Part shown: piece after piece, positions 31,100 to 58,160 of the stretch
Position numbering within the stretch: the stretch's first letter is position 1
Layout: each line of letters starts with the position of its first letter
Virus record (IMG/VR): IMGVR_UViG_3300030103_000167
Span: 1 to 58,959 of that record
Length of the DNA: 58,959 nt
Reading direction: 5' to 3' (one strand)
Source: a virus
Program-made: the position numbers and the translations under genes
Notes under the pieces: model-generated
The model's input: only the letters and a program-made list of their open reading frames with translations
Told to the model about the DNA's origin: nothing
The model's database searches: none

Positions 31100-31995
31100 A
31101 ATCCCTCCACTATAGGTAATTTATCATTGTGTTTATATACAGACCTTGTTCTTCCTTCACCTTTAAATATACGTGAGTATTTATCGAATTCACAAAGTCC
31201 TCCTTCTATCTCTCTTAATTCATAAGGTATGTCATTTCTGAAGGTTAGATGGACAGGTAATCTTTTTAAGGCTATATCATATAAAGCAACCATTTCACTA
31301 CACCAATCATGGCTACGTTGACAGAAATCTAAAGGTCTTCCTGTTAGCCTATTCAATCCTCTCATAGCTCCTGGACCTGCATTAGCCCATGTCAACTTAT
31401 CATTAGCTGCAGACAAAAAATAAGTAAATCTTAAATCTGTAACAACCTCATACGCCATAAACGGTCCCATGTATGGATAATCTCTTAATAACTTCCAACA
31501 ATATTCTAAAGAACATTTATCTTCTTCTATTGCTTCTTCTAATTTTTCAATCAAATAATCTTTACGTTCCCACATATGAGTTATACACTCCGCTACACCT
31601 GTAACTTTATCCATACCGTTTGGAGACTTTACTATATAAGCTCCTGTAACCCATTTATCTTGTTTAGTTATTTCTTCTATTGCTTTTTTTCTATTCCAAT
31701 TTATTAATAAATCATTGTTTATAAGAGTTCTACCAGTAGGAATCCAATTAAACCATCTAAAAATAACTACTGCCATAAGCACGTCAGAACTATTACGCAT
31801 AGGCTCTCTTATATGTTTTTTAAGCCACCTAGTTGTTCTATCTTCTTCACGAAAAACTTGACAGAACTTATAATGTTGTAGAATAGAATCATCAGTCCAA
31901 GGGGGTGGTAGTTTCGATACTTCTTTTTGTATCCTGATATTTTCTCTTTCTACTTGCCAATACAAATATCTGTCAAGTTCCTCACGAATAAACAT
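31096..31995 (-). CDS. 5-hmdU DNA kinase helical-domain / aGPT-PPlase-type thymine hypermodification protein
   Basis: The protein has 299 residues. Diagnostic blocks are VVIFRWFNWIPTGRTL, WVTGAYIVKSPNG, YPYMGPFMAYEVVTDLRF, WANAGPGAMRGLNRLTGRPLDF and a C-terminal YELREIEGGLCEFDKYSR. They match the all-helical, glycosylase-like family known from genomes with 5-hydroxymethyl-dU derived bases (HMUDK_hel, earlier alpha-glutamyl/putrescinyl-thymine pyrophosphorylase clade 2). In characterised phages, related proteins act after hmdU is incorporated into DNA. No separate P-loop DNA kinase gene was found nearby, so the pathway may be partial or use another enzyme. Co-transcribed with the thymidylate-synthase homologue. 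Confidence 0.78.
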   Translation of the reverse strand: MFIREELDRYLYWQVERENIRIQKEVSKLPPPWTDDSILQHYKFCQVFREEDRTTRWLKKHIREPMRNSSDVLMAVVIFRWFNWIPTGRTLINNDLLINWNRKKAIEEITKQDKWVTGAYIVKSPNGMDKVTGVAECITHMWERKDYLIEKLEEAIEEDKCSLEYCWKLLRDYPYMGPFMAYEVVTDLRFTYFLSAANDKLTWANAGPGAMRGLNRLTGRPLDFCQRSHDWCSEMVALYDIALKRLPVHLTFRNDIPYELREIEGGLCEFDKYSRIFKGEGRTRSVYKHNDKLPIVEGL

Positions 31996-32852
31996 TACTT
32001 TTTCCTAATTATCCAAGAACAATTATTGGCGTACTCAGGGTAGAATGTTGCAGCAACAACTCTTAAAAATTGCCTACCATATCTATTTTGGAGCATATCG
32101 AATTGAGCATCAGACCAACCTGTTGAATTAAAGGCTTCTCTCCTCTCTTCTTTTCTAGCTTTCTTTAAATTAGGTAATTGTATAAACGTTCCTGTTACTG
32201 CCTCTATGGTAAAGTTTCTTTCTAGTTCTTCTTTCAGCTCTTGATAGCCCCACTCATAGACATGGTCTTCAGGTAGTTTATCATTAGAGCCGTCGTGATT
32301 AGGCGTAGAGACAAAACCTAAAGCATTAGGTCGCATCACCCTAGCTACATCGTCAAGCCACGGAGCTATAAACTCTCTACCCATATGCTCAATAACTTCA
32401 GTAGACCAAAACATATCTATACTTTCATCTTCTAAATCAAATCTAGGATTAACAGTTAAATCTTGTATTCTTATCTCACCATTAAAGTTTTGAAACCACG
32501 TAGAGTTTTCTAAAGGGTTACCAGCATTAGACCAAAAAGGATTCTCCATAGTGCATGCAGGGTCAATATCATAACCATAATAAGACCTAATAATATCAGA
32601 CTTTTTAACTACGTATGCTTTATACAAAGCACGTAATGTCCAACACTCGCCACACCCCACTTCAAAAGTATCTAAAGGTCTGCCTAGTTTTTTAGCTTCT
32701 TCTATACACATAGAAGCAATTTTATCAAAACGACTCATATGTGCTAATTCATCTGGTCGCCAATTAGCTAATACTCCCGCACTAGCTATATCCATTCTTG
32801 TATTTTTACTATCGTTTTCATTAACGAGTAGTTTCTTTCTAATCGAAGACAT
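31995..32852 (-). CDS. Class I SAM-dependent methyltransferase
   Basis: The protein has 285 residues. Motif I FEVGCGECW (about 62-70) binds S-adenosylmethionine, YGYDID gives the acidic post-I residue, and IDMFWSTEVIEHMGREFIAPWLDDVARVMRPNALGFVSTPNHDG is the type-11/SAM-binding core. There is no DPPY or NPPY motif, so a classic N6-adenine or N4-cytosine DNA methylase is unlikely. As first gene of the P12 operon, next to hypermodification genes, it may methylate a modified base or nucleotide, or a small molecule. The substrate is unknown. Confidence 0.8.
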   Translation of the reverse strand: MSSIRKKLLVNENDSKNTRMDIASAGVLANWRPDELAHMSRFDKIASMCIEEAKKLGRPLDTFEVGCGECWTLRALYKAYVVKKSDIIRSYYGYDIDPACTMENPFWSNAGNPLENSTWFQNFNGEIRIQDLTVNPRFDLEDESIDMFWSTEVIEHMGREFIAPWLDDVARVMRPNALGFVSTPNHDGSNDKLPEDHVYEWGYQELKEELERNFTIEAVTGTFIQLPNLKKARKEERREAFNSTGWSDAQFDMLQNRYGRQFLRVVAATFYPEYANNCSWIIRKK

Positions 32853-32871
32853 AAGTCCCTCCTTTAAAATT

Positions 32872-32901
32872 AATATACTTTACTTTTAAATGCAAAGTAA
32901 A
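32872..32901 (-). promoter_or_regulatory. Early promoter P12
   Basis: TTTACT (32896-32901) then TATATT (32872-32877) at 18 bp. The region contains CTTTACTT paired with AAGTAAAG, an inverted repeat across the promoter. It heads the modification-polymerase operon 32852 to 27238. Confidence 0.7.
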
Positions 32902-32906
32902 GAACT

Positions 32907-34403
32907 TTATATTTGAAAACATCTTGTTGTTTTCGGTTCTATTAAGAACAAGTTTTCTTTTGCTCTTGTCATACCAACATAGAACACCCTATTCTCATCA
33001 TCGGGGTTCTTTTGATAATTTTTATAAACTCTATTAGTGATATCTGTTAATAAAACTACGTTAGTTGCCTCTCCACCTTTTGCTGCATGTATGGTTGATA
33101 ATCTTATACGTGGTTGTTTTGTAATCTTTTCTCCTCTACGTAACATAGCTCTTATATAACTTATCTCTGCAGGTCTTAACAATGTAAATACATCGTACCA
33201 CTCACCTGTAGGTAAATCTGGAAACTTTTCTTGTAATAGCTCTAAGTTTGGTTTTGTACTAGCCTCTAATAAATCTATCTTCTTATAATCTTTTACTTTT
33301 ATATATTTGAAAATATTTGTGCACTCTGCTAGAGATATACTTTCGCCTTTTCTTAATCTCTCCCAGTTGATAACAGCTCTTACTTTGCTTTCTGGTAAAC
33401 TTGTTTTACCTTTAACCTCAAAGAACCAACCTTCGTTTCTACAATACTCATCAACTTCTTCTAATAAATAATTTGTTCTAGCTAAAACTAACCAATCACC
33501 TTTTTCCATATTAAGTAAGTTTATGTTTGGCTCCCACCTCACTTGACCTTTATCTTTACGTGGGTGCCATGTTTTATGTATACGTGAACCTACTTGCGAT
33601 ATACATTTTTTTGCATACTCATGTACACTAGCAGGTATTCTGTATGATTGTTTTAACACCATAGCATTTTTACTATTACTAATAAGATAATCGACATCTG
33701 CCCCCGCCCATTTGTAAATAGCTTGGTCATCATCTCCAGCTACATAAATACGTTTTGAGTTATCTGCTAACTTACGCACTACAGCCCATTGTATCGGTGA
33801 TAAGTCTTGTGCTTCATCTACAAACATCACATCTAATTTAGGTATTGTGCCTTCGTGAATAAATTTATGTAACATATCTGTGTAATCTACTAATAGCTTA
33901 TCTTCTTTAAATAATTTCAATCCTCTAGAATACCTTTCTAATTCAAACCAACCTACTGCATCGTCAACACTATGCCATTGTTCTTCTAATGAAACATGTC
34001 TCATTCTAGCCAAGTTTTCAATAAAAGCCAATCTATCGTCGTGGGTCATAGCAAATAAATGTCCATCTTCTGTTTGGGTTCTGCCTGTTAACTTTAAATT
34101 TAGTTTTTCATTTAACTCTATAATATCTTCTCTGCCCATGACGTTCTCTCTAGTAAGACCTAGTTGTCTAAAAGCTAATGAATGTAGTGTTCTAAAATAA
34201 GGTAGTTCATTATTACTTACGCCAAATTTAGTCATAGCCCTTTCTTTGCCTTCGTTTACTGCTTTACGAGTAAATGTAAAAAAACCTATGTCTGTAGGCT
34301 GTGTGCCTTGCTCTAACTCTTTTTCTATGAGCTCTAAAAGAGTTGTAGTTTTACCTGTTCCTGGTGGTCCAAGAATAACTTGTGTATGTCTAGGTAACGT
34401 CAT
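32907..34403 (-). CDS. Short UvrD/Rep-type superfamily 1 helicase
   Basis: The protein has 498 residues. Motifs are GPPGTGKTT (Walker A), VMFVDEAQDLSPIQ (Walker B), YVAGDDDQAIYKWAGAD (motif III), SYRIP (IV), LSTIHAAKGGEATNVVLL (V) and RVFYVGMTRAKENLFLI (VI). It would unwind DNA 3'-5' during replication or repair. It is shorter than UvrD (about 720 residues), mainly in the inserted 1B/2B subdomains. No DnaB-type helicase was seen in the window, so this or the SNF2-type protein may serve at the fork. It overlaps the AlkB-like gene by 4 nt. Confidence 0.9.
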   Translation of the reverse strand: MTLPRHTQVILGPPGTGKTTTLLELIEKELEQGTQPTDIGFFTFTRKAVNEGKERAMTKFGVSNNELPYFRTLHSLAFRQLGLTRENVMGREDIIELNEKLNLKLTGRTQTEDGHLFAMTHDDRLAFIENLARMRHVSLEEQWHSVDDAVGWFELERYSRGLKLFKEDKLLVDYTDMLHKFIHEGTIPKLDVMFVDEAQDLSPIQWAVVRKLADNSKRIYVAGDDDQAIYKWAGADVDYLISNSKNAMVLKQSYRIPASVHEYAKKCISQVGSRIHKTWHPRKDKGQVRWEPNINLLNMEKGDWLVLARTNYLLEEVDEYCRNEGWFFEVKGKTSLPESKVRAVINWERLRKGESISLAECTNIFKYIKVKDYKKIDLLEASTKPNLELLQEKFPDLPTGEWYDVFTLLRPAEISYIRAMLRRGEKITKQPRIRLSTIHAAKGGEATNVVLLTDITNRVYKNYQKNPDDENRVFYVGMTRAKENLFLIEPKTTRCFQI

Positions 34404-34987
34404 ATGCCTGTCCTAAACGTTAAATTAATTCTTTCTTTAGCTCCTATAATATCGGGTACAGCATGGGTACACTTCATTTGACTATGTCCATCGAATATAA
34501 TTACATCACCATGTTCTAATAAATAGGCAGTCTCTTTTACTAAGAAATTTTCTATTTTTGTATTTACTTCGCTTGTATCTGTTTTAGTTTTTATAGGGTT
34601 CTGATATTCTCTCCATGTAAAAACTCTAGGTGCTCCGAATGATATAGACACAACTAAATCGTCTAACGTTGGTATAGTGTCTGAGTGGTGTGGTATGCCT
34701 TTTCCATCTTCGCCATAGTAACCACATAAACAAAAAGTTAAAGATGCTTGTTTGCCGTATTCTTTTAACAACATTACCTCTGTTAATAATTTAATACCGA
34801 GTATAACATCGTTATCTGTCCAAGGTCTTCCTGTGTAGGTTTTTCCTGCATAATTAAAAGTTCCGCCAAAACCTGCGGTATATCTACCTTTTACAGTTTT
34901 GCCTTTAAACTCTCGTGTGGTTGGTTCATCCCACTCTGTAATTATCGGGTTTTTATTTTTGAAATATCCTTTTTTATAATCAATCAT
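34400..34987 (-). CDS. AlkB-like Fe(II)/2-oxoglutarate dioxygenase
   Basis: The protein has 195 residues. The Fe(II) triad is H101-x-D103 (in PHHSD) and H175 (CTHAVP), and RINLTFR (186-192) supplies the 2-oxoglutarate-binding arginine. The nucleotide-recognition stretch LCGYYGEDGKGIPHHSD is typical of AlkB homologues. It could reverse alkyl damage in single-stranded DNA or RNA, or oxidise a methylated or modified base. The nearby methyltransferase and hypermodification genes leave the second option open. It lies between the primase-like and helicase genes. Confidence 0.88.
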   Translation of the reverse strand: MIDYKKGYFKNKNPIITEWDEPTTREFKGKTVKGRYTAGFGGTFNYAGKTYTGRPWTDNDVILGIKLLTEVMLLKEYGKQASLTFCLCGYYGEDGKGIPHHSDTIPTLDDLVVSISFGAPRVFTWREYQNPIKTKTDTSEVNTKIENFLVKETAYLLEHGDVIIFDGHSQMKCTHAVPDIIGAKERINLTFRTGI

Positions 34988-38421: not shown

Positions 38422-39864
38422 ATGCAATATAAATTTAAGACTAAACCATACACTCATCAATTAGAAGCGTTAGAAAAATCATGGCGTAAAAAAGAGTATG
38501 CTTACTTTATGGAAATGGGAACTGGTAAATCAAAAGTTCTTATAGACAATATAGCTATGCTTTATGATAAAGATGCTATAAATTCTGCAGTAATTGTTGC
38601 ACCTAAAGGTGTTTATAGAAACTGGCTAGAAAAAGAAATACCAAGTCATATGCCAGAACATATAGAATATAAAACTGCTATATGGACACCCGCACCTAAC
38701 AAAAAACAAAAGAAAGATTTAATAAATATCTTCGAACCAAGTTACGAATTAAAAATTTTAATAATAAACGTAGAAGCCTTTAGCACTAAGAAAGGCGTTA
38801 CCTTTGTAAATAAGTTTGTATTATCACACCTTAGTCTTGTAGCTGTAGATGAATCTACTACAATCAAAAACCCAAAAGCACAAAGAACAAAAAACTTAAT
38901 TAAAATAGCTACTAATTCTAAATATAGAAGAATATTAACAGGATTTCCTGTAACACGCTCACCTTTAGATTTATATAGTCAATGTGCTTTTCTTAATACA
39001 CACTTATTAGGTTACGGTTCATATTATTCTTTTCAAAATAGATACGCACAAATTATGAATAGGCAACTAGGGACACACAGTTTTAGACAAGTAGTGGGTT
39101 ACCAAAACTTAGAAGAACTTACTAGCTCGTTAGACTCTTTTTCTTATAGAGTGTTGAAGAAAGAATGTTTAGATTTACCAGATAAAATTTACACAAAAAG
39201 AGAAGTAGAACTAACACCAGAGCAAAAGAAAATTTATAAAGAACTAGCAAAATATGCCATAACAGAACTAGAATCACATGAAACTGTTAGTGTAACATCA
39301 ATACTAACACAAATATTAAGATTACATCAAGTCGTATGTGGCTTTGTTAAACACGATAAAGGTGAAGAAGTAGAAATAAAAAACAATAGAATAGATGAAC
39401 TAATTAATGTTTTACAAGAAATACAAGGTAAAACTATTATATGGGCTAATTATCAATACGATATTAAGAGAATATTAAAAACTATTCAAGGTATAACAGG
39501 TACAGATAGTGTAGCTACTTATTATGGTGATACACCTGATGAAGAAAGACAAGAAATAATTAGAAGGTTTCAAGACTCTGACTCTGAATTACAGTATCTT
39601 ATTAGTAATGTACAAACTGGTGGTTACGGTATAACTTTAACAGAAGCTAAAAATGTAATTTATTATAGTAATAACTATGATTTAGAAAAACGTTTACAAT
39701 CAGAAGACCGTGCTCATCGTATAGGTCAAACAAATAAAGTAACTTATATTGATTTAGTAGCTAAAGGTACAGTAGACGAAAAAATAGTGAAAGCCTTGCG
39801 TAATAAATTAGATTTAGCACAAGAAGTTTTAGGTGATGAAAAGTGGAAGGATTGGATTAATTAA
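38422..39864 (+). CDS. SNF2-type (superfamily 2) DNA helicase/translocase
   Basis: The protein has 480 residues. Motif I EMGTGKSKVLI, a DEST variant of the DEAH box (VAVDESTTIKNPKAQRTKN), LTGFPVTRSPLD (motif III), IIWANYQYDI, and the SNF2-like C-terminal motifs NVQTGGYGITLTEA and RLQSEDRAHRIGQTNKVTYIDLVAKGTVDEKI. It would translocate on or remodel double-stranded DNA in replication or recombination. It is the only plus-strand gene, ends convergently (4-nt overlap) with the gene at 39861-40430 and has its own divergent control region. Confidence 0.9.
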   Translation: MQYKFKTKPYTHQLEALEKSWRKKEYAYFMEMGTGKSKVLIDNIAMLYDKDAINSAVIVAPKGVYRNWLEKEIPSHMPEHIEYKTAIWTPAPNKKQKKDLINIFEPSYELKILIINVEAFSTKKGVTFVNKFVLSHLSLVAVDESTTIKNPKAQRTKNLIKIATNSKYRRILTGFPVTRSPLDLYSQCAFLNTHLLGYGSYYSFQNRYAQIMNRQLGTHSFRQVVGYQNLEELTSSLDSFSYRVLKKECLDLPDKIYTKREVELTPEQKKIYKELAKYAITELESHETVSVTSILTQILRLHQVVCGFVKHDKGEEVEIKNNRIDELINVLQEIQGKTIIWANYQYDIKRILKTIQGITGTDSVATYYGDTPDEERQEIIRRFQDSDSELQYLISNVQTGGYGITLTEAKNVIYYSNNYDLEKRLQSEDRAHRIGQTNKVTYIDLVAKGTVDEKIVKALRNKLDLAQEVLGDEKWKDWIN

Positions 39865-46390: not shown

Positions 46391-47494
46391 TTACCTAATC
46401 ATAAAATTGCCAGTAAGTCCGCCAAAACCTGGACCAAATCCTGGAAAGAAACCACCTAAACCACCAGCAGGCATTCCTGGATTTACTCCTGGATTTACTC
46501 CTGGATTTACTCCTGGATTTACTCCCGTATTATTTGTAGGTGGTGTGTATTGTGTTTGTTGAAAAGGTAAAGATATATTACCTATACCTGTAAATGCTGG
46601 TGAAAAAGTATTTGGGGTATAAGATCCGCTTGTTGTTGGTGTGGCACCTGCATAACCGAAGCCACCTGCTAACGGTCCAAGAGACGCTGTTAATCCACCA
46701 AGATTTTGTATTAATTGCATAGGTAAATTATATTGACCTGTAAAGTTTGAGTAATCTAAATCCATTAAGGATTGACTTCTACCTCTACCTAAACCACCAA
46801 ATTGTAAAGTACGGTTTATATCTGCTGATTGTAGTTGTGGGAATAATCCTGCTAATCCAGAAAACTGTCTACTTATACCGCCTAGACCCTGTCCAGCCGA
46901 AAGATTTCTACGTTGTGCTTGTTCAAATGCATTTTGTGCTTGTTGCGAAGCTAAACCAAAACCACGACTTCTTATATTACCGACTGCCTCAGCTGCACCT
47001 CTACCTACTTGTTTAGCTAATTCGTCTTGTGCTATACGACCTCTAGACCCTCCAAAAGCACCTTGACTAACAGCCCTATCACGTAATCCCATATCTGCTT
47101 GGGAAAATCTTGTATCTATATCGTCTAGCGTTTGTTTTACAACTGCATCTTCAAAAGGATTTTGAAACTGACTTATAGTATTAGGGTCGAACTGTCCTGT
47201 AGCACCACGAGTCAATGTACCTGCTTCATTTAATAATTGAGCAGAACTACCGAGGAAAGGTCTATAACTGCCTATAGCTCTATCAGATAACTGAAACGCT
47301 AATCGTTCTCTTGGGTCAAAATCAGCAACTCTTTGTCCTGTGTAAGTAAATGGTGAGCTATCTTCTCTACCTAAATTATCTAATTGGTTTCTAAAATATT
47401 CAGAGGCTGCTGGAAATATAGTTTGTGATAATAAATCACCTATAAACCCTGCGGGGGCTTGACTGGAAAATTCTTGTTCTTCTCTACTAGCCAT
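46391..47494 (-). CDS. Putative virion protein with Gly-Val-Asn-Pro repeats
   Basis: The protein has 367 residues: a helical N-terminal half (IGDLLSQTIFPAASEYFRNQLDNLG; RERLAFQLSDRAIGSYRPFLGSSAQLLNEAG), an Arg/Gln/Ala-rich coiled region (GRIAQDELAKQVGRGAAEAVGNIRSRGFGLASQQAQNAFEQAQRR), and a Gly/Pro C-terminus with four tandem GVNP units. It is part of the internal-protein block and overlaps the upstream gene by 8 nt. Its function is unknown. Confidence 0.58.
   Translation of the reverse strand: MASREEQEFSSQAPAGFIGDLLSQTIFPAASEYFRNQLDNLGREDSSPFTYTGQRVADFDPRERLAFQLSDRAIGSYRPFLGSSAQLLNEAGTLTRGATGQFDPNTISQFQNPFEDAVVKQTLDDIDTRFSQADMGLRDRAVSQGAFGGSRGRIAQDELAKQVGRGAAEAVGNIRSRGFGLASQQAQNAFEQAQRRNLSAGQGLGGISRQFSGLAGLFPQLQSADINRTLQFGGLGRGRSQSLMDLDYSNFTGQYNLPMQLIQNLGGLTASLGPLAGGFGYAGATPTTSGSYTPNTFSPAFTGIGNISLPFQQTQYTPPTNNTGVNPGVNPGVNPGVNPGMPAGGLGGFFPGFGPGFGGLTGNFMIR
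46476..46523 (-). repeat. Four 12-bp tandem repeats encoding Gly-Val-Asn-Pro
   Basis: CCTGGATTTACT is repeated four times without a mismatch (46476-46523, plus strand). The unit is in frame and gives a collagen/elastin-like flexible spacer. Perfect copies suggest recent slippage, so the copy number may vary between isolates. Confidence 0.88.
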
Positions 47495-48554: not shown

Positions 48555-50288
48555 TCAAATGGTGTATATTATTAAAGGTTTTTCTTTACCTTTTACTTTT
48601 ATAGGTTTTACTGATTTTAAGTGATGACCACAAAATTTTTCAGTTTCTTCGCCTATAAGTATGTTTACACCTGCTTCTTTTGTAGCTGATTCTAACCTAG
48701 CTGCTGTATTTACAGCGTCCCCGATAGCACTATAATCGAACCTAGTATCGCTACCCATATTACCAATTACAGCTTCTCCTGTATTTACGCCAACACCTAT
48801 AGCTACACCTATATCAGCTTTTTCTATATTTTCTTGTATTTCTTTAGCACATTCTACAGCTACCTGTTCGTGATGTGGTAAATCTAATGGTGCGTTAAAT
48901 ATAGCCATCATTGCATCACCGATATATTTATCTACCATACCGTTGTATTTTTTTACTGCATCAGATTGTATAGTTAATGCTTTATTCATAATCTCTGTTA
49001 CTTGTTCTGGTTCTAGTTTTTCGGATAATGCAGTGAACCCTCTGACATCAGTGAATAAAAAAGTACATCTTCTTTTTTCACCACCTAGTTTTAATAAATC
49101 AGGGTCTTTTTGTAAACGTTTTACTTGCCTTGGGTCTAGATAATGTTCGAATTGTTTTTTAATTTCCAGACGTAATTTATATTGTTCTCTAAACCTTAAA
49201 TAAAAAGCTACACTTCCTGATATAAATTGACTAATTAATGTCCATGTAACATCTATTAATATACCCACGCCTATCGTGTAAGCCCCGTAGAAGCCCGTAG
49301 AAGCCATAGTTACTAAAGCTAGAATTACACCCCAAGTTATCCCTAAATAGCTTATAAACGCCCATACGAGCCCTATAGATACTATAAATATTAATAGTTC
49401 TACAGCTAACGCATAATCGGGTATATAAGGGCTATCTTGTATTAATATAGATTCTGCAAGTGCAGCTTGTATTTTATGTGGTTCAACAAGTCCAATAGGC
49501 GTAGCAATTTGCGGCATTACACCATTAGCAGTAACACCAACAAATACAAACTTTCCATTTACATTCATTTCTTGTAAATCTGTTTGTTCAGTTTCTACCC
49601 ATGATATCCATTTACGACCAAAGCTATCTGTTTTTACAGGTGGTAGTCCTCGAACAGCTATTTCTTGAACACCGTTATCGTTAGTAGTAACTATATATGT
49701 AGGCGTATTTGTTAATATTTTTAATACTTGCGTTCCGAATGAAGCCGACCAACCGTCAGGAGTTTTTAATAAAAGAGGGATTCTCCTAACAAGTTGGTCA
49801 ACTTCTGTAGGTGCTATAGCAACTCCTTGTGCTACAGCATCGTACTGATAATAATTTTCTTTAATACCAGAAGACATTATACCACCAACATCTGGTCCTT
49901 TAATAACAGTTCCTGTAGTTTTGGGGTATATACCACTATTATTTTCAAAAGTAGCTAAAACACTTGGAGCATAAGTTAGAGAACTAGCAAACCTATTATC
50001 ACCATTTAACCTGTCTGGTTGTGGGAAAGATATAACCCAACCAACACCCATTGCTCCCGCACCTAATAGTTCTAATTGTATATCGGCTAAACGTTTTCTT
50101 GGTAAAGGATAGCCACCTTCCTTTTCTACATCTTCTTCAGTAATATTTAATATTACAAAATTACCGCTAGGCTGAGGTGTTTTAATAAATGTATCAAAAG
50201 TTTTTAACTTTATAATTTCTGTAGGAGTGCTTTGAAATAACAAAGGTAAAGATAATAAAGGTAATAATATAAATATAAATTTTTTCAT
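48555..50288 (-). CDS. CHASE2-domain class III adenylate/guanylate cyclase
   Basis: The protein has 577 residues. An N-terminal membrane helix (1-19) precedes an extracytoplasmic CHASE2-like sensor (about 25-285), followed by three hydrophobic helices (about 293-362) and a class III cyclase domain (about 405-577). Metal-binding residues are D414 (LFTDVRGFT) and D458 (KYIGDAM). K454 and S520 fit base selection as in class IIIb adenylate cyclases, and N527 and R531 (VNTAAR) stabilise the transition state. All catalytic residues are present, so it should make cAMP (cGMP less likely) in response to a periplasmic signal. It overlaps the FecR gene by 1 nt. CHASE2-cyclase/FecR pairs occur in bacteria; in a phage late operon they are surprising. 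Confidence 0.9.
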   Translation of the reverse strand: MKKFIFILLPLLSLPLLFQSTPTEIIKLKTFDTFIKTPQPSGNFVILNITEEDVEKEGGYPLPRKRLADIQLELLGAGAMGVGWVISFPQPDRLNGDNRFASSLTYAPSVLATFENNSGIYPKTTGTVIKGPDVGGIMSSGIKENYYQYDAVAQGVAIAPTEVDQLVRRIPLLLKTPDGWSASFGTQVLKILTNTPTYIVTTNDNGVQEIAVRGLPPVKTDSFGRKWISWVETEQTDLQEMNVNGKFVFVGVTANGVMPQIATPIGLVEPHKIQAALAESILIQDSPYIPDYALAVELLIFIVSIGLVWAFISYLGITWGVILALVTMASTGFYGAYTIGVGILIDVTWTLISQFISGSVAFYLRFREQYKLRLEIKKQFEHYLDPRQVKRLQKDPDLLKLGGEKRRCTFLFTDVRGFTALSEKLEPEQVTEIMNKALTIQSDAVKKYNGMVDKYIGDAMMAIFNAPLDLPHHEQVAVECAKEIQENIEKADIGVAIGVGVNTGEAVIGNMGSDTRFDYSAIGDAVNTAARLESATKEAGVNILIGEETEKFCGHHLKSVKPIKVKGKEKPLIIYTI

Positions 50289-51400
50289 TAACTACTTTGT
50301 CGTATAGTGATAGTAGAATCACCACCACCATTAATTTTAATTATATTAGAAACACCGTCTTGTATCAAAATAACAGTATATCCACCACCAGAGTTCAAAT
50401 CTACTTGTACTGACTCACTTATTTTTCTACGTAAACTTATAGTTTGTCCAGTTACGATAGTTGTTATTTGTGTCTCAGTATCTTGACCTATCAAAGTACC
50501 AGATATATTTACACCAGTTGCTAAAGATAGTTGGTCTTCATCTTCTTCAATAGCTAAAGCATCTAATACTTTCAATAAATCTTCTAAAAAATTAACGTCT
50601 AGGTAATTTATATCGAGCTCTGTAAATTCTAAACTATTATCATCTAAAAAATCTTCATTTAAATAATCAATATCTAAATCATTAAAATCTAATAAACTTA
50701 CTGTTTTTGTATTTGATGTTTCTTCTTGTATGACATCTTCTTTTTTAGGTGGCGATACAATCAACATATTATCAATAACGTCTAACGTTAAATCTAGAAC
50801 TACAGGTTTACTTGGTGCGTTTTCAAAAACGTCTACCGTTGTAGCTTCATAAGGTTTATTTAATACAACACTACCTGTTGCTGTTACTACCTCTATTTCT
50901 CCGCTAGATAAACCAAAAGAGTCAGGTAAAAGTATTATTAAGGAGCGTCCTAACTCATCAACAGTTGCTGTAAAATCTGTGCCACGTATTGCTATATTAG
51001 CTGTAGGTGTTCTTAATTTTATATTTTGTTTATCTATAAGATTTATGTTACCTGATATAAACCTAGCTGTTCCTAAAGCAAAATTTAATGACATCTTAGA
51101 TTGACTAGGGTCAGGGTCATAGATATATTCATCTATAAGAAGTTGTGAGTGTTCTGTAAGTCTTACGATTGATTCATCTAAAAATGTGATAGCCATACGA
51201 CCATTAGTCGTTATAGCCTCATCATTACTTTGTATAGCAAAATCAAGATTAGCATTGTAGGTTTTGTCTCTGACTATTTGAGCCGAGCCGTTTAGCTCAG
51301 ATACATCGCCAATATTAACAGCTTGTGCTTGTACCTTGATCGTTTTGGATAACGCAAACAGTACCGCTATTACCGTTAGAAAGAATTTTGAGCCAGTCAT
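50288..51400 (-). CDS. FecR-domain protein with curlin-like C-terminus
   Basis: The protein has 370 residues. A signal peptide (about 1-26) is followed by a FecR-type domain (VSELNGSAQIVRDK, DEAITTNGRMAITFLDESIVRLTEHSQLLIDEYIYDP, TPTANIAIRGTDFTATVDELG). A long acidic linker (LDFNDLDIDYLNEDFLDDNSLEFTELDINYLDVNFLEDLL) comes next. The end, with VQVDLNSGGGYTVILIQDGVSN and DSTITIRQ, has QxGxxN spacing as in curlin repeats. FecR domains bind partners in the periplasm and often pair with CHASE2 proteins. It may link the curli-like material to the cyclase. The start has no clear ribosome site and overlaps the curlin-like gene by 86 nt. Confidence 0.8.
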   Translation of the reverse strand: MTGSKFFLTVIAVLFALSKTIKVQAQAVNIGDVSELNGSAQIVRDKTYNANLDFAIQSNDEAITTNGRMAITFLDESIVRLTEHSQLLIDEYIYDPDPSQSKMSLNFALGTARFISGNINLIDKQNIKLRTPTANIAIRGTDFTATVDELGRSLIILLPDSFGLSSGEIEVVTATGSVVLNKPYEATTVDVFENAPSKPVVLDLTLDVIDNMLIVSPPKKEDVIQEETSNTKTVSLLDFNDLDIDYLNEDFLDDNSLEFTELDINYLDVNFLEDLLKVLDALAIEEDEDQLSLATGVNISGTLIGQDTETQITTIVTGQTISLRRKISESVQVDLNSGGGYTVILIQDGVSNIIKINGGGDSTITIRQSS

Positions 51401-52031
51401 TATCTAATGTACTCGATTGTGTAATATTAAAAGTTCTAGAATTACCAGTTTGGTCTAAATAAAAATACCCACCAGCATAACCAGAACCAGTAAAGTTTAC
51501 TGTATTACTATCACCGTCAACATCAACATAACTTGTACCACCGTCGTAATTTATATCAAAATCGAAAGTGTTGCCATCGCCTTGTATAATCCAATCTAAA
51601 TCTAATGTAGCAGCCAGTGCACTTGTACCGTGGTCTAAAGTAAAAGTATTTGTGCTACCAGTAACATCTACATTATAATTAGAATTATCTATACCGTATG
51701 TATTTGTTGGGTCACCTTGTATGGTAAAAGTGTTGCTATCACCATCAAACTCGAAAAATCCTGTAATAGTATCTCCTAATATATCACCTAAAAATTTATT
51801 AGTATCGCCTATTTGATTTATATCTAGAGTCATTGTAATACCGTCTAAATCTAAAGCTGTTAAAGAACCTGCAGAAGAATTTAATCCACCTATAATATTA
51901 CCAGAGCCTAGTTGTTCTAAATCTATATTTGCTGTAGCACCAGATTGGTCAACATATATTTCATTATCAGCCCCGTATATTAGCGATGCATTCGTCATCA
52001 CAATCAGGCTCATTAATTTTAATAGCTTCAT
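51315..52031 (-). CDS. Secreted curlin-repeat (CsgA-like) protein
   Basis: The protein has 238 residues from the ATG at 52031, which has GGGAGGA at good spacing. A signal peptide is present (MKLLKLMSLIVMTNASLIYG). About eight QxGxxN/DGDSN units follow: EQLGSGN, NQIGDTN, DGDSN, TGSTN, IQGDGN, DGDSN, DQTGNS, NGNSG. These are the spacing and residues of the curlin strand-turn-strand repeat, though Asp often replaces Gln. The C-terminus carries two Cys. It would be exported through CsgG and could form amyloid-like fibres. The stop codon lies 86 nt inside the FecR gene. Confidence 0.75.
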   Translation of the reverse strand: MKLLKLMSLIVMTNASLIYGADNEIYVDQSGATANIDLEQLGSGNIIGGLNSSAGSLTALDLDGITMTLDINQIGDTNKFLGDILGDTITGFFEFDGDSNTFTIQGDPTNTYGIDNSNYNVDVTGSTNTFTLDHGTSALAATLDLDWIIQGDGNTFDFDINYDGGTSYVDVDGDSNTVNFTGSGYAGGYFYLDQTGNSRTFNITQSSTLDNDWLKILSNGNSGTVCVIQNDQGTSTSC

Positions 52032-52836
52032 TTTTTTCCTCCCAAAAACCTTTATCATAACCTATTTTGACGATTTGCAAAACAGACTCCTCTATAGCTC
52101 GTTGTAAAGCGAGAGTAGTTGGTTCATTTTCTGCGTCTCCCATTTCTATTTCTACTAGCTCTGTACCAGCTTCAATAAACCTAAAAACATCTTGTGATTG
52201 ACCATAACTAAAAACTTGTTTACTAATCAAAACATCTATTAAAACTTCACCAGTAGCTATAGATACCATACGTAACGCTACTGTAATATTATCTACTCTA
52301 TATTGTTTACTTGTTCCAATACCTAAATATCTAGCACCAATGCCACCACTTTTAATATTTGTGTCATACCCAATTATGGCACCTTCCATAAGAACACCTG
52401 CAAATAATAACGGCATGATAGGTTTAGGACCATCAGTTTTTTCGTTTTGTTCTCTAGCTGAACGTATAAGTTGTCTTTCTTTTGTTAGATTATCAAGACC
52501 TACTCTTTCTGCAACTCTAAAAAATTTACCATTTGATGTATGTTTTAAACTTCTAATAAGTAAATGACTTGGTGCTTGTGTTAATGCTGTAGAAAATAAT
52601 GCAAACTCACTATTGCTTTTTCGTTGTCCTGTTTGGTCTGTGAAACTATTGGGATAAACAGCAACAACAATAGGAACTTTAGGTTGCGGAACATTTAATA
52701 ATTGTTTAGATTGTATTTCTAATATATTTGGTAAGCTCTCGCCTTGTATAAGAGTCTTGTCTATAGGGTTAATACTACAACTAGAAAGAAAAATCGCCAA
52801 CAGGCAATTGTATCTCAGTGATATTTCCATCTGCAT
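51967..52836 (-). CDS. csgG: CsgG-like outer-membrane curli secretion lipoprotein
   Basis: The protein has 289 residues. A lipoprotein signal ends in the lipobox LSSC (Cys20; an internal ATG at 52830 keeps it). The body follows CsgG: VPIVVAVYPNSFTDQTGQRK, LLIRSLKHTSNGKFFRVAERVGLDNLTKERQLIRS, PLLFAGVLMEGAIIGYDTNIKSGGIGARYLGIGTSKQYRVDNITVALRMVSIATGEVLI, and a C-terminal helix LALQRAIEESVLQIVKIG. Length matches E. coli CsgG (277). CsgG forms a nine-fold outer-membrane pore for curlin export. It overlaps CsgF by 56 nt and the curlin gene by 65 nt. Confidence 0.88.
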   Translation of the reverse strand: MQMEISLRYNCLLAIFLSSCSINPIDKTLIQGESLPNILEIQSKQLLNVPQPKVPIVVAVYPNSFTDQTGQRKSNSEFALFSTALTQAPSHLLIRSLKHTSNGKFFRVAERVGLDNLTKERQLIRSAREQNEKTDGPKPIMPLLFAGVLMEGAIIGYDTNIKSGGIGARYLGIGTSKQYRVDNITVALRMVSIATGEVLIDVLISKQVFSYGQSQDVFRFIEAGTELVEIEMGDAENEPTTLALQRAIEESVLQIVKIGYDKGFWEEKNEAIKINEPDCDDECIANIRG

Positions 52837-53278
52837 CAGTAATCTTAAGAGTTATGATTCCGTTTTCTATACTGTATTCTATAGTGTTTCCCTCTAAGGT
52901 CAAAGTGCCATCTGTGCTAGGTGTCTCGCCAAACAAGTTTTCTACTAATTGTCTTGATAACTGAGCATAGATACGTGATTCAAGATTCCTAATGAATCTA
53001 GCAAGAGTTGTGTTTTCTTTATCTCTTTCTATTTGTTCTTGTATAGCTTTTATTTCTTCTTTAATACTCATCTTACGATTGAACTCTTGGTTTTCAATAG
53101 TTAGATAATGTGATGAAGTATTTACACCATTAAAAGATGGGTTTTTGAATTTATGTGTTATTGTGTCTGACCATAAATTTTCACAAAATATGCCTATAAA
53201 CATCATAACACCTATAACAACAGACAGTTTTATAATTACGTCTTTTTCTTTTCTTTCTTTAATCTTTTCTTTGGTCAT
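52781..53278 (-). CDS. csgF: CsgF-like curli assembly protein
   Basis: The protein has 165 residues from the ATG at 53278, which has AAAGG about 9 nt upstream; a TTG at 53296 is less likely. A basic start and hydrophobic signal or anchor (13-31) precede THKFKNPSFNGV, the same pattern as mature E. coli CsgF (FRNPNFGG). A helix ARFIRNLESRIYAQLSRQLVENLFG and a C-terminal GNTIEYSIENGIITLKITDADGNITEIQLP match the rest of CsgF. CsgF plugs and extends the CsgG pore and helps nucleate fibres. The helix region is longer here. No CsgE gene was seen. Confidence 0.8.
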   Translation of the reverse strand: MTKEKIKERKEKDVIIKLSVVIGVMMFIGIFCENLWSDTITHKFKNPSFNGVNTSSHYLTIENQEFNRKMSIKEEIKAIQEQIERDKENTTLARFIRNLESRIYAQLSRQLVENLFGETPSTDGTLTLEGNTIEYSIENGIITLKITDADGNITEIQLPVGDFSF

Positions 53279-53609
53279 TTCTATCTGCCTTTGCAATTTT
53301 ATTACTGTCTATAAGATTAGGAACACCTAGTATAGTTTTTATTAAAGTATCTTGTCTAATTATCTCGTTATCTAAACTTCTTACTCTATCTATCAAGGCT
53401 ACTAAAATACCGTGTTGTGTGTCTAATTTAGTTCCTAATCTTTCTTCTATAGCGTTTATCTGTCCTGCTACCTTTTCGTCTACTACATCAAGTTTTTGTT
53501 CCATGCCATCAACAATTCTAATGACAAGTTTATAAATAAACCAACCTAAACCTATTGCAGCAGCTATAGGAAAACCAACCTCTTGTATTAAAGTAACTGC
53601 TTGTTCCAT
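53259..53609 (-). CDS. Small membrane-anchored coiled-coil protein
   Basis: The protein has 116 residues. An N-terminal membrane helix (FPIAAAIGLGWFIYKLVIRIV, about 12-33) is followed by a heptad-rich coiled coil (MEQKLDVVDEKVAGQINAIEERLGTKLDTQHGILVALIDRVRSLDNEIIRQDTLI). The shape suits a small holin-like or spanin-like lysis protein, or a membrane partner of the curli-type proteins. It overlaps CsgF by 20 nt and follows the thermonuclease gene by 1 nt overlap. Confidence 0.55.
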   Translation of the reverse strand: MEQAVTLIQEVGFPIAAAIGLGWFIYKLVIRIVDGMEQKLDVVDEKVAGQINAIEERLGTKLDTQHGILVALIDRVRSLDNEIIRQDTLIKTILGVPNLIDSNKIAKADRNDQRKD

Positions 53610-53989
53610 TAATAGTCACCCCAGATTTTAGTTTTTTTACCTCCATCATATTTGACTGCATGCCCCTCTTTTATCAAAACATCGCAAATATCTCTGCCGT
53701 CTTCTGCATAAGGTATACCAAGTATTCTACCGTATTTACCTTTTCCTAAAGATTTAACTTGTATTTTACCGATACATAATTCTTTAAGTCTTTCCTTTGC
53801 AGCTAGACCAAGTTTCTTTTCTGCTAAATCTCTTGTTCTTGATTCAGGTGTATCAATACCCGCAAGTCTAACACGTTGTTTATGTAATTTTACATCGAAC
53901 CCTAAATCTAAAGTACAATCAAAAGTATCGCCGTCAACTATACGTTCTAGTGTTGCATTATATACAAAAGATTCTGGAGCTTTAGCCAT
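53609..53989 (-). CDS. Thermonuclease (staphylococcal-nuclease-like)
   Basis: The protein has 126 residues. The order IVDGDTFDC (D19, D21), RLAGIDTPE (R41, D46, E49) and GKYGRILGIPYA (R88) reproduces the catalytic residues of SNase (D21, R35, D40, E43, R87). It cuts DNA or RNA using Ca2+. No signal peptide is present, so it acts in the cytoplasm or after lysis, for example degrading host DNA. Placed in the late region before the curli-type genes, it may act near lysis. Confidence 0.9.
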   Translation of the reverse strand: MAKAPESFVYNATLERIVDGDTFDCTLDLGFDVKLHKQRVRLAGIDTPESRTRDLAEKKLGLAAKERLKELCIGKIQVKSLGKGKYGRILGIPYAEDGRDICDVLIKEGHAVKYDGGKKTKIWGDY

Positions 53990-54274
53990 TTAACACTTCC
54001 ATCTTTTTCTAGCTTGTCTTAATCTTGAATTAGGGTTTTTTGCAGCTTTAGGAAACTTTTTCATCTGACCTGCAGAACGTGCACAAAATGATTTACGTCT
54101 TTTTGCTGCTTTACTACCTTTTTTAACTTTACCTGTTACTGCTGTTTTTAATTTACTTCCAGGATTCATACGTCTATACGCTTTAACTCCTGCCGCAGTC
54201 ATACCAGCACCTTTTTTAGTAGCTCTAAAATTCTTTTTATTTCTTTTAGGCATCTTAGCCTTTTTTCTTGGCAC
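53990..54274 (-). CDS. Small very basic protein (DUF6321-like)
   Basis: The protein has 94 residues, about one-third Lys/Arg, with GMTAAGVKAYRRMNPGSKLKTAVTGKVKKGSKAAKRRKSFCARSAGQMKKFPK, a pattern I recall from small proteins of marine phages (DUF6321 type). The start is a GTG at 54274 with a strong GGAGC site, or the ATG at 54253. The strong positive charge suggests DNA or virion binding. It is the last of seven such genes in a row. Confidence 0.62.
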   Translation of the reverse strand: MPRKKAKMPKRNKKNFRATKKGAGMTAAGVKAYRRMNPGSKLKTAVTGKVKKGSKAAKRRKSFCARSAGQMKKFPKAAKNPNSRLRQARKRWKC

Positions 54275-54560
54275 TTTTGCTCCTCTTCTTTTTTGAAAAA
54301 GTTCTTACGTTCGTTGGTTTACCACCAGGATTTCCTGCTGCTCTTTTTCTTCTTACAGCACTTGCACGTTCTGCTGCTGTCATACTTTTAGCTTTACTTC
54401 TTGGCACGCATTTAGGATAACCACGTTTACTTCCTCCTTTAGCTGACTTACGACCACACTTTTGAAATTTTCCTTTTTTCTTCGGTGCACCGATATCAAC
54501 CCAATCACCTTTGGGACCTTTACCAAACCAAGCTGTCAATCCACCACTAGGTTTTGCCAC
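54255..54560 (-). CDS. Small very basic protein
   Basis: The protein has 101 residues, rich in Lys, Arg, Gly and Ser (KKRSKSAKKKG at the end; MTAAERASAVRRKRAAGNPGGKPTNVRTFSKKKR in the second half). Two Cys residues lie in KCGRKSAKGG and YPKCVPRSK. It overlaps the next gene by 20 nt and the previous one by 14. Part of the basic-protein cluster; possibly a DNA-condensing or internal head protein. Confidence 0.58.
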   Translation of the reverse strand: MAKPSGGLTAWFGKGPKGDWVDIGAPKKKGKFQKCGRKSAKGGSKRGYPKCVPRSKAKSMTAAERASAVRRKRAAGNPGGKPTNVRTFSKKKRSKSAKKKG

Positions 54561-54855
54561 GTTTCTTCCTCATTCTACGTATTGCCTCTTTACCTCTTTT
54601 TGCTATAGCTGCTTGTTGTGTTTTACCTGCAACTTTAGCTCTTTGTTCCATCACAGTTAAGATTTGAATTTTCCTAGCAAATGGTTTTTTAATTTTTTTA
54701 ACTTTTGCCACAGTTTTCCTAGCATCTGCTGGAGTTTTGTAAGCAATTCTAACAGTATCTTTTGGATTTTCATCTGTATATAATCTCCTCCCACTACCTT
54801 TGGGTTTTTTACCAGTTCCTTTTTTAGGTTCTTTTTTACGTTTACTTTTTACCAC
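54547..54855 (-). CDS. Small very basic protein
   Basis: The protein has 102 residues and starts with GTG at 54855. It is Lys/Arg-rich with GTGKKPKGSGRRLYTDENPKDTVRIAYKTPADARKTVAKVKKIKKPFARKIQ and a C-terminal helix (EQRAKVAGKTQQAAIAKRGKEAIRRMRKKRG). It overlaps both neighbours by 14 nt. No known fold; its charge suits nucleic-acid binding. Confidence 0.58.
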   Translation of the reverse strand: MVKSKRKKEPKKGTGKKPKGSGRRLYTDENPKDTVRIAYKTPADARKTVAKVKKIKKPFARKIQILTVMEQRAKVAGKTQQAAIAKRGKEAIRRMRKKRGKT

Positions 54856-55006
54856 GTCTTTTAGTTCCTTTTCTAGCTTTTCTTATCTGAGATGTTGTAG
54901 GTGCACCTTTTGCACCTTTTTTACGCATACGTTCACCAGAACCAGCTTTAATTCTTTTACGTTTAGCATGGATATTAGCCCACAATCCTTTACGTTTTTT
55001 AACCAT
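54842..55006 (-). CDS. Small very basic protein (54 residues)
   Basis: A 54-codon ORF starting ATG 55006 with MVKKRKGLWANIHAKRKRIKAG, then GERMRKKGAKGAPTTSQIRKA and a terminal RRGKK. It overlaps both neighbours by 1-14 nt and shares the composition of the cluster. The GERMRKKGAKGAPT part resembles a motif repeated in other basic phage proteins. Confidence 0.55.
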   Translation of the reverse strand: MVKKRKGLWANIHAKRKRIKAGSGERMRKKGAKGAPTTSQIRKARKGTKRRGKK

Positions 55007-55203
55007 TACGCTTTTTTAGTTCTATATCCTCCACCACGTTTTTTATAAGTTCTAACTAACCATCCGTTTGCATAGGCACTTGGATAAACTTTGAACTTAC
55101 GTTTAGCTTCAGCCTTTACTCTAGCGTATAAACTAGGGTTTGTAGGAACTGCTTTTGATTTAGAAGACTTCTTTTTAGAAGACTTCTTTTTAGCTTTTGG
55201 CAT
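55006..55203 (-). CDS. Small very basic protein
   Basis: The protein has 65 residues. A Lys/Ser head (PKAKKKSSKKKSSKSKAVP) precedes a part with YARVKAEAKRKFKVYPSAYANGWLVRTYKKRGGGYRTKK. That half looks folded and resembles a short conserved 'KxxxYPSAYANGWLVxxYKKRGG' motif common in marine phages. Its role is not known to me. Confidence 0.62.
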   Translation of the reverse strand: MPKAKKKSSKKKSSKSKAVPTNPSLYARVKAEAKRKFKVYPSAYANGWLVRTYKKRGGGYRTKKA

Positions 55204-55212
55204 AACTTCTCC

Positions 55213-55425
55213 TTACTTACCGACTTTTTTCTGTGTTTCTTTATGAGCCTGTGTGAAAGATTTACCTTTTTTCATCATGTTCTTCATCATAGTCATATGC
55301 TTTTTAGTATGATGCACCCCATGTTTTTTCATGGTTTGTTGTTGTCTAGGTGTTAGACCTGCCATACTTACGCCTTTGACTGTGATATTTTTCATGGCTT
55401 TTTTAGGTTTAGCTTTCATCTTCAT
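55213..55425 (-). CDS. Small basic Met/His-rich protein
   Basis: The protein has 70 residues, Lys-, Met- and His-rich (MAGLTPRQQQTMKKHGVHHTKKHMTMMKNMMKKGKSFTQAHKETQKKVGK). The segment LTPRQQxTMKKHxxHHTxKHMxxM recurs in small phage proteins. It overlaps the preceding 25-residue ORF by 4 nt (ATGA). Confidence 0.6.
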   Translation of the reverse strand: MKMKAKPKKAMKNITVKGVSMAGLTPRQQQTMKKHGVHHTKKHMTMMKNMMKKGKSFTQAHKETQKKVGK

Positions 55426-55501: not shown

Positions 55502-55945
55502 TTATTCTCCTTTTAATACTCTGTCTCTTAATCTAGTCGCACGTGGTCCAACTTGTGTAGCCCAGCGACTATCCATCATTTCAACCGCAGCAGTTTTCCA
55601 GTCATGTTCTTCTAGTGCGGTTAAAAACTTTTTAAACTTCAGTAACCTAGTAATACCTAAATTAAAACACATATTAGCTAAAACTCTTTGTACATCCTCT
55701 GGTAGATGTAACCACCATTCTAAATTTCTATCTAGGTCTGTTGTAACATTATCTATATCTTTTTCAAAACATTCTTTTATTCTATCTTCTGATACAGGGG
55801 TGTCTACGTCCTGACCATGTTCAGGGTCTGATTCTAATATTAAATGACCTATACCAAACGTGGGATATCCAAGGTGGTCTAAATATATTTTATCAACACA
55901 ACCTTCATCAAATTTTAGTTCTTCCATCAACTTATCAATATTCAT
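55502..55945 (-). CDS. Endolysin, T4-type lysozyme (GH24)
   Basis: The protein has 147 residues from the ATG at 55945, which overlaps the previous stop (ATGA). A longer in-frame reading from 56062 is only another frame of the upstream gene. The catalytic triad is E14, D23 and T29 (KFDEGCVDKIYLDHLGYPTFGIGH), with the same spacing as T4 lysozyme (E11, D20, T26). It hydrolyses the peptidoglycan glycan strand. No signal sequence is visible, so release needs the holin at 14863-15330. Confidence 0.92.
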   Translation of the reverse strand: MNIDKLMEELKFDEGCVDKIYLDHLGYPTFGIGHLILESDPEHGQDVDTPVSEDRIKECFEKDIDNVTTDLDRNLEWWLHLPEDVQRVLANMCFNLGITRLLKFKKFLTALEEHDWKTAAVEMMDSRWATQVGPRATRLRDRVLKGE

Positions 55946-56268
55946 AATATCTTTACTATTGTAGACCCTCCAGTTGAAACTGAAACTACGCCCAAGGACG
56001 CTATTGCTTCTAATCCTTTTTCTTCTCCTATATATAAATCTATCCATTCTGTTCCTGTCCATAATTGTAATTGTTCAGTGCTCAGATTAAAAATTATATC
56101 ACCTTTGTTAAAAAAATTTAAATTTCTTTGTGTTTCATTGACAGATAAAGTAGAATCTACATCTACTGAATTTAGAGATAACTCTAATACTCTGCTTAAT
56201 CTGTTAAAAGTATCTGCGTTAACTTGTCCTTGTGCTGTGGGTAACTTAGTTTCTAAAAGTTTACTCAT
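55942..56268 (-). CDS. Tail-block protein upstream of endolysin
   Basis: The protein has 108 residues. A helical start (LPTAQGQVNADTFNRLSRVLELSLN) is followed by beta-rich SVNETQRNLNFFNKGDIIFNLSTEQLQLWTGTEWIDLYIGEE. The 'GDIIxNxxTxxLQxWTGTEWxDL' pattern is frequent in phage fibre or tail head-binding segments. It overlaps the stabiliser gene and the endolysin by 1 and 4 nt. Likely a minor tail protein. Confidence 0.6.
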   Translation of the reverse strand: MSKLLETKLPTAQGQVNADTFNRLSRVLELSLNSVDVDSTLSVNETQRNLNFFNKGDIIFNLSTEQLQLWTGTEWIDLYIGEEKGLEAIASLGVVSVSTGGSTIVKIL

Positions 56269-58160
56269 TATCTTTGTCCATCTGGTTTTACATCTAACCT
56301 AGTCGCACCTAATCTAAAACTCATACCTAATACATTAGTATCGTCATCATTAGATTGAACTCTTAACACAACTTGTCTACCACGTAATCTAGTATCTAAC
56401 TTGGTTGTGTTAGAAAAACAAGAAGCGGTGGTTATTGTTGTTAAATCTTCTCCTGGAAAATTTCTTTTTTTCAAAACAAAATCTAATTTTTGACCTGTAG
56501 AACCTATAGAACCGTTGCCTATAAATTTTACATCAGGTATTACCCTATTAACATGTTGAAATAAATCTCCCTCTCCTAAATCGAAATCACTAGATTCAAT
56601 AAAAACATTTTGCATAGCAGAACCATCGTCATCATGACCAACTTCGTGATTAAATAAACAACTAGCGTTAGTTGATGTTTCATGTGTAGCTATTGGTTTA
56701 TCAAAAACACCTTCATCTAACCAAGCGTTTCTTGAAAGTTGTCCTATAGTCCAAACATTTTCATCATAGTTATATACCACATATCGATCAACGTTAGTTG
56801 CACTAGAAGAACAATAAAACCAACCAACTTCATTAAATGCTTTGTTAGAAAATGCGAATATTTGAAAACTTTGTGTATCATTTATATCATCAAAAACATA
56901 ACTTAATACACTACAAGGTAAACTTTGTACTTGACCTGTATATGTATAAAAACCTTTTTTATCCATCCAAAAAATACCCTTAGGCGTATTAATAGCAGCG
57001 TTAGGACCAACTAAACCTACACCCTCATTAACTAAATTAACACCAAAAGTAAAAGGTTGTCCTATAAAGCTCAAAGAATATAAAGAAGTGTCTGTCCAAA
57101 CTAATGTCTCTTGTCTTGCCCTAAGTGCACCTATAATTGAAGAACCTGCTGATAAACGTAAAGAACCTGCAGTATTAGTAGGCAACGGCTCCCACTCTGT
57201 AACGTTTTCTTGGTCACTAAAAGCAATCAACATAGGGTCTATGGTTCCTGACCTAGATGAATCAACTATAGGGTCAGCACCAAAACAAATAACGTGTCTA
57301 TCTATATCACTAACTAAAACTTGTAATGCTACAGTTGGAGGTAAATTAGCACCTGCTAAATCAGATAATGCTACTGCTCTCGATGAAGTGCCACCGCTTG
57401 TGTCCCAATAAAAAACACCACCACTCCTAGGATTAAATACTAAATCTTCACCAAAATTATCATGTGAGTATAATCTTAATTGATTTGCAAAACCTAAAGA
57501 CTCAGTTGAACCAAATGTACCTTCACCCCAACCATTTATACCCCAACCCGTTGATGGAACATAAACATCTAAACCAACATTTATCTGATACGCCCCTACT
57601 ACAGAAGAACCTCCATTTCCTGTATCTGAAGAATTAGCTAATACTGTTGTACCAGATGTATCTTTCGCTTCTATAGTGTAACTATTTGCGTTTACTATGT
57701 TTGCTATTTGATACTCTTGATTAAGTACGGCGGCAGTTATGTTACCGCCTAATGAAGAAGCACCACTAAATGTTACAAAATCATTTTTTACAGCACCATG
57801 AGCAGTATCAGATACAGTAATAGTAGCGTCGCTATTAGCAACTTTTGCAAAAGTAACATCGCCAGCAGCTGTTGTAGACCTTATTGGCGTGATATCATAA
57901 TAATTAGTGCCTTCTAATATATAGTATTTTTGTGTTGCACCTATACCTATATATTGAGTGCCACCAAGAGCTGTCCATGCATGTAAGGCTCTACCACGTG
58001 ATACAAAAGTAGAAGATGTTCTTTTAGCCCATCCACCTATTTTTTCAGGTAGTCCTTTTCTAAATCGTACTAAATTACTATCGAACCATCCTCCCTCATT
58101 TGCATAAGCAGTAAGTTCTTTGTTTATTCCAGGCTTGAAAATAAATTTTTGTAAAGGCAC
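56268..58160 (-). CDS. P22 gp10-like tail/DNA-stabilising structural protein
   Basis: The protein has 630 residues, predominantly beta. The start PLQKFIFKPGINKELTAYANEGGWFDSNLVRFRKGLPEKIGGWAK is a block I know from tail hub/stabilisation proteins of P22-type podoviruses. Repeated WxxGxxF-like and YNYDENVWTIGQL blade-like strands suggest a beta-propeller. It would close the portal channel below the gp4-like ring. It is distant from the gp4-like gene in this window but in the same late transcript if the map is circular. Confidence 0.68.
   Translation of the reverse strand: MPLQKFIFKPGINKELTAYANEGGWFDSNLVRFRKGLPEKIGGWAKRTSSTFVSRGRALHAWTALGGTQYIGIGATQKYYILEGTNYYDITPIRSTTAAGDVTFAKVANSDATITVSDTAHGAVKNDFVTFSGASSLGGNITAAVLNQEYQIANIVNANSYTIEAKDTSGTTVLANSSDTGNGGSSVVGAYQINVGLDVYVPSTGWGINGWGEGTFGSTESLGFANQLRLYSHDNFGEDLVFNPRSGGVFYWDTSGGTSSRAVALSDLAGANLPPTVALQVLVSDIDRHVICFGADPIVDSSRSGTIDPMLIAFSDQENVTEWEPLPTNTAGSLRLSAGSSIIGALRARQETLVWTDTSLYSLSFIGQPFTFGVNLVNEGVGLVGPNAAINTPKGIFWMDKKGFYTYTGQVQSLPCSVLSYVFDDINDTQSFQIFAFSNKAFNEVGWFYCSSSATNVDRYVVYNYDENVWTIGQLSRNAWLDEGVFDKPIATHETSTNASCLFNHEVGHDDDGSAMQNVFIESSDFDLGEGDLFQHVNRVIPDVKFIGNGSIGSTGQKLDFVLKKRNFPGEDLTTITTASCFSNTTKLDTRLRGRQVVLRVQSNDDDTNVLGMSFRLGATRLDVKPDGQR

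Follow-up and report, generated by a model that had tools for sequence, protein, structure and literature searches.

The 58,959-base marine phage record analysed here (the window, taken at its full length) encodes on its minus strand six overlapping or abutting genes, 48555-53609, that we read as a type VIII secretion module joined to a putative FecR-CHASE2 sensor pair, which together would provide an adhesive fibre coat for sibling capture. For this reading as a whole we put the chances at about even. The module was already published in 2022 for HTVC023P-type podoviruses (PMC9599517), and the window is therefore a further member of it. That paper lists CsgF, CsgG, CsgA/B, FecR, a second CsgA/B and an adenylate cyclase, together with one or two 'histidine kinases', and thus answers a question raised by an earlier, sequence-only reading of this DNA, whether marine-phage csgG comes with a curlin partner. 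It also reports expression of the module in metatranscriptomes and gives the share of a small genome taken up by the exporter, which the hosts lack, as about 8%; these are phages of the most abundant bacteria of the ocean. New here are an upstream protein that appears not to be a kinase, a pairing of FecR with CHASE2 in Alphaproteobacteria apart from curli operons, adhesin domains on some second curlins, and the curlin as the most constrained gene of the module. The genes and their neighbours are:

56268-58160, minus strand: virion structural gene, upstream of the module
55502-56062, minus strand: endolysin, upstream of the module, about 2 kb from the gene of the 116-residue protein
53259..53609, minus strand: 116-residue membrane-anchored coiled-coil protein (phrog_18771)
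52781..53278, minus strand: CsgF-like protein (Pfam CsgF, 6.1e-16)
51967..52836, minus strand: CsgG-like outer-membrane lipoprotein pore subunit (Pfam CsgG, 1.9e-47)
51315..52031, minus strand: secreted curlin-repeat beta-solenoid protein (GxxN units, model, orthologues)
50288..51400, minus strand: secreted FecR-domain protein (Pfam FecR, 2.1e-9)
48555..50288, minus strand: CHASE2-class III adenylate cyclase (Pfam CHASE2, 2.9e-23; Guanylate_cyc, 2.4e-20)
46391-47494, minus strand: DNA-ejection-like protein, downstream of the module

The sequence-only reading had set the module at 51315-53278, with csgF, csgG and a curlin-repeat gene overlapping in one operon. All three are there on the minus strand; the operon itself is longer. 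From the gene of the 116-residue protein to that of the cyclase the overlaps are 20, 56, 65, 86 and 1 bases (computed from the assigned coordinates, with the curlin starting at 52031, rather than from the longest ORFs), which suggests translational coupling. This curlin start, an ATG with GGAGG ahead of it, is probably the correct one, as opposed to the longest-ORF start at 52058. Because the module is flanked on the same strand by the endolysin and virion structural genes and by the DNA-ejection-protein gene, late expression is likely, as judged purely by gene position. Adjoining the module upstream, 53609-53989 encodes a Staphylococcal-nuclease-like protein that is kept in most podovirus relatives, and 53990-55425 encodes a run of five or six small proteins, all very rich in Lys and Arg, that may condense DNA or be internal to the virion. 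In 023Pt_psg01, one of the genomes of PMC9599517, a matching set (one protein at 86% identity) comes after the portal gene, so the placement differs between the two phages.

Identities to 023Pt_psg01 of 75% (capsid), 58% (terminase), 51% (portal) and 53% (PolA) place the phage within the HTVC023P-type podovirus lineage or close to it. Of the 59.8-kb genome of 023Pt_psg01, 49 kb were read and showed no curli genes, and a megablast of the phage against known phages gave no match. The record is possibly incomplete; no end repeat was found. Elsewhere in the window, a cluster at 30071-34987 (thymidylate synthase, 5-hmdU DNA kinase [PF18723, 4e-44], methyltransferase and 2OG-Fe(II) oxygenase) makes hypermodified thymine in the phage DNA likely, and a SNF2-type helicase at 38422-39864, on the plus strand, is the sole large gene opposing the genome direction.

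The family assignments of CsgG and CsgF, for which a profile search had been named as the check, are unambiguous by sequence. Both match Pfam far above the curated cut-offs, CsgG over its full length, and an alignment search with CsgG matched solved E. coli-type CsgG chains in the PDB at 1e-65. The features noted earlier are also present: read by eye, CsgG has a lipobox, LSSC, ending at residue 20, and CsgF has a signal peptide followed by the mature N-terminus THKFKNPSFNG, which contains the constriction-peptide motif FxxNPSFxG. In E. coli CsgGF the second constriction consists of this N-terminal CsgF peptide. Among 23 phage orthologues the FxxNPxF N-terminus is kept, with P and F of the NPxF invariant. 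A search for CsgE found none in the window (the E. coli control was positive). The CsgE gate is found in enteric curli systems and is not essential. A 1.5-kb 'Salmonella phage' record (OR851715.1) encodes a CsgG 41% identical to that of the window and is possibly a mislabelled fragment.

The curlin assignment is weak by sequence but is supported by a confident solenoid model and by relatives that match Curlin. Of the roughly eight QxGxxN-type units described at first, eight GxxN units are found (a number equalled in only 7 of 2000 shuffles), of which just two are strict QxGxxN. The window protein stays below the Pfam cut-off for Curlin_rpt (E 0.09), whereas among its aligned phage orthologues 18 of 41 reach E 0.05 or lower, the strongest match being 3.7e-9. 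AlphaFold predicts a regular beta-solenoid (mean pLDDT 83.5, pTM 0.79). Foldseek of this model among viral predicted structures (BFVD) gave 'Curlin associated' as the top match (4.5e-5); against the PDB there was no significant match, with the E. coli CsgA fibril only at E 4.9. Families, synteny and model support the earlier proposal that the phage encodes both a CsgG/CsgF pore and a curlin as its substrate; the sub-threshold curlin match is the weaker part.

All module genes are under purifying selection and the curlin is the most constrained, with a median pN/pS of 0.10, the lowest of eight genes tested (csgG 0.14, csgF 0.21, FecR 0.16, cyclase 0.20); the fibre gene is therefore kept functional. 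An intervening curlin-type ORF is present in all 132 loci with a full-length FecR. The window phage has this one curlin and lacks an adhesin-domain second curlin. Second curlins of related phages match Curlin_rpt in 16 of 30 cases, and some carry additional domains: PA14 in HTVC008M and in locus L125 (2.7e-6, 5e-9) and F5/8C in locus L167 (2.4e-9). PA14 and F5/8C are typical ligand-binding domains. Their presence on some second curlins points to adhesion and fits an adhesive fibre.

The survey of phage csgG neighbours, proposed in the sequence-only reading, returned the curlin together with three genes that the reading had missed, those for FecR, the upstream membrane protein and the CHASE2-adenylate cyclase. 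We annotated 80 close and 80 more distant viral loci and counted presence only where the contig reaches far enough. With that restriction neither csgF (150/150 loci) nor FecR (116/116) is ever missing, the cyclase is absent once (71/72), and 128/141 loci have one or more upstream membrane genes; the loci were ranked by similarity, a non-random sample, and IMG/VR contigs may share populations, so these counts are not independent. The three genes missed by the sequence-only reading belong to the conserved unit.

The 116-residue protein sits where PMC9599517 places a 'histidine kinase'. It has one hydrophobic segment followed by a charged helix, and all 29 members of its family match phrog_18771 (unknown function). 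A histidine kinase was rejected for this position in the window, since none of the 29 members contains a kinase domain and HATPase_c was found nowhere in the window (control genomes positive, 14/14). For the genomes of PMC9599517 this raises strong doubt about the kinase label rather than disproving it. The membrane anchor bears on a different proposal. PMC9004378 (2022), which reports csgFG in Melnitz, suggested a pinholin or secretin role; along these lines CsgG would be an outer-membrane leak pore that acts with a holin-like protein and the endolysin in lysis timing or envelope permeabilisation, the curlin serving as gate or plug. Six of the 29 upstream proteins do weakly match a PHROG holin (phrog_4898, best 9.7e-5), and the endolysin lies 2 kb upstream. 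However, CsgG inserts in the outer membrane and therefore cannot depolarise the inner one, the holin resemblance is weak, and the proposal does not account for FecR, the cyclase or a secreted curlin whose solenoid is conserved. We consider this explanation improbable.

At the other end of the operon, the cyclase combines CHASE2 with a catalytic domain whose metal and substrate residues appear intact: by eye, the catalytic Asp, Lys, Asp, Asn and Arg positions are present (DVRGFT, DKYIGD, DYSAIGDAVNTAAR). The nearest solved structures are an adenylate cyclase (2w01, 1.6e-28) and CyaB (3r5g). A search of the phage for a cAMP-binding protein or cAMP receptor found none. The FecR-domain protein has a signal peptide as judged by eye; its structure model is poor (pLDDT 65). 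Its C-terminus is a conserved strand ending in IxIxQ, with Q368 invariant in 49 orthologues, and this end (window 50288-50330) looks like the ends of phage curlins. As a candidate curlin repeat, the FecR C-terminus scored 21.7 in hhalign against 15.2 for the best of 50 column shuffles; the unrelated FecR N-domain scored 24.3 against the curlin profile, which leaves the likeness of the C-terminus only suggestive.

FecR and CHASE2 are a linked, recurrent pair in Alphaproteobacteria: of 69 CHASE2 loci from this class, 15 have FecR no more than 3 kb away, where about 0.33 would be expected. None of the CsgG places in 76 alphaproteobacterial genomes (13 places checked by script, the remainder by inspection) is within 10 kb of FecR or CHASE2. 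Likewise, viral profiles detected no FecR, CHASE2-cyclase or upstream membrane gene at 15 bacterial csg loci with flanks of up to 8 kb, a search that divergent FecR or cyclase forms could escape. The phage module thus looks like two bacterial units joined. These data also bear on nutrient uptake, raised in PMC9599517 and PMC7029224, in which a CsgG pore standing open without CsgE would admit large cofactors or siderophores while FecR senses iron. The missing CsgE gate and the name FecR suit this idea. Yet the FecR neighbours in the module are the curlin and the cyclase, with no sigma factor or TonB receptor of the FecIRA type, and FecR-domain proteins beside CHASE2 recur in bacteria, so that the iron reading rests on the name; uptake would moreover need neither curlin nor CsgF. 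We regard it as very unlikely.

In a CsgG tree of 75 rows the window groups with podoviruses (SH-aLRT 100), and this clade is nested in a cluster that is mostly viral (99). The cluster also takes in two bacterial CsgG proteins on long branches (Paracoccaceae), whose positions are unsure; they come from csgF-csgG pairs of Amylibacter and Ascidiaceihabitans without a recognised adjoining curlin. Four loci from MAGs named Maricaulis, Flavobacteriales, Saprospirales and Pelagibacter (L085-L088) resembled a curli operon of bacteria that includes FecR and the cyclase. They were rejected as bacterial operons, and are probably misbinned phage contigs, because the upstream genes of the phage module are present in L085-L087 and the CsgG proteins of all four lie in the viral clade.

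Compared with the pelagiphage type VIII system of PMC9599517, the order csgF-csgG-curlin-FecR-adenylate cyclase is shared and the podovirus is related. The window differs in having one curlin where the published order has a second CsgA/B, and in the gene before csgF, which encodes a small membrane/coiled-coil protein and is not recognisable as a histidine kinase. The myovirus loci of HTVC008M (Pelagibacter) and Melnitz (OM43) comprise two small membrane proteins, csgF, csgG, curlin, FecR, a second curlin and the CHASE2-cyclase; their CsgG proteins are 43% and 38% identical to that of the window, respectively, and the second curlin (with PA14 in HTVC008M) has no counterpart here. The Melnitz-3 GenBank record (MZ577098, 6833-9627) annotates two curlin-repeat proteins and FecR, contrary to the statement in PMC9004378 that Melnitz lacks csgA/csgB. 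Bacterial curli (type VIII secretion) operons share the csgF-csgG-curlin core; by viral profiles none of the 15 loci examined shows FecR, CHASE2-cyclase or the upstream membrane gene, and the window lacks CsgE.

We infer the following model from these families. CsgF, CsgG, curlin and FecR would be exported by Sec. CsgG would then form an outer-membrane pore lined by the N-terminal peptide of CsgF, and the exported curlin would stack as a beta-solenoid fibre on the surface of the infected cell. Periplasmic FecR and the inner-membrane CHASE2 cyclase may act as a sensor pair that converts the envelope or secretion state into cAMP. The most likely outcome is a coating of infected cells with adhesive fibres, which would keep sister cells and progeny virions close together, as in the 'sibling capture' hypothesis put forward for csgF/csgG in pelagimyophages (PMC7029224, 2020). 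We favour adhesion because some second curlins carry adhesin domains and because T7 trapped by curli in E. coli biofilms still infects new cells (PMC8346279). The main point against it is that no clumping was seen during infection by Melnitz, a phage with the same module (PMC9004378). Further points against the whole reading are the curlin below the Pfam cut-off with its few strict QxGxxN units, the lack of CsgE, of a cAMP-binding protein in the phage and of an adhesin-domain second curlin.

The nearest rival is superinfection exclusion, proposed for pelagiphages in PMC9599517, in which the curli coat traps or blocks competing phages instead of capturing sibling cells. Bacterial curli do block access of T7 and T5, according to the passage of PMC8346279 that cites Vidakovic 2018, and the module is common to phages of different families, which could compete for hosts. 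On the other hand, a virulent phage lyses its host soon, the gene position points to late expression, a stage at which exclusion brings less benefit, and a passive mesh would not need the adhesin domains of second curlins. We think exclusion unlikely; lysis control and uptake are less likely still. Returning to the adhesive coat, we also speculate, giving it a small chance, that the module is a fibre machine that monitors itself, of a kind not known from bacteria: FecR, with its curlin-like end, would report curlin export or fibre docking to the cyclase, cAMP would couple fibre assembly to the timing of infection, and the fibres of relatives would display ligand-binding domains for host capture.

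Misbinned curli-phage contigs in MAGs would mislead analyses of origin, and with an upstream gene that is not a kinase the regulatory story tied to the module becomes doubtful. If infected cells are made sticky, this would change how phages spread in dilute water; if rivals are blocked instead, the module would be a new barrier to superinfection. Concrete, testable handles come from the linkage of FecR with CHASE2 and from the adhesin domains.
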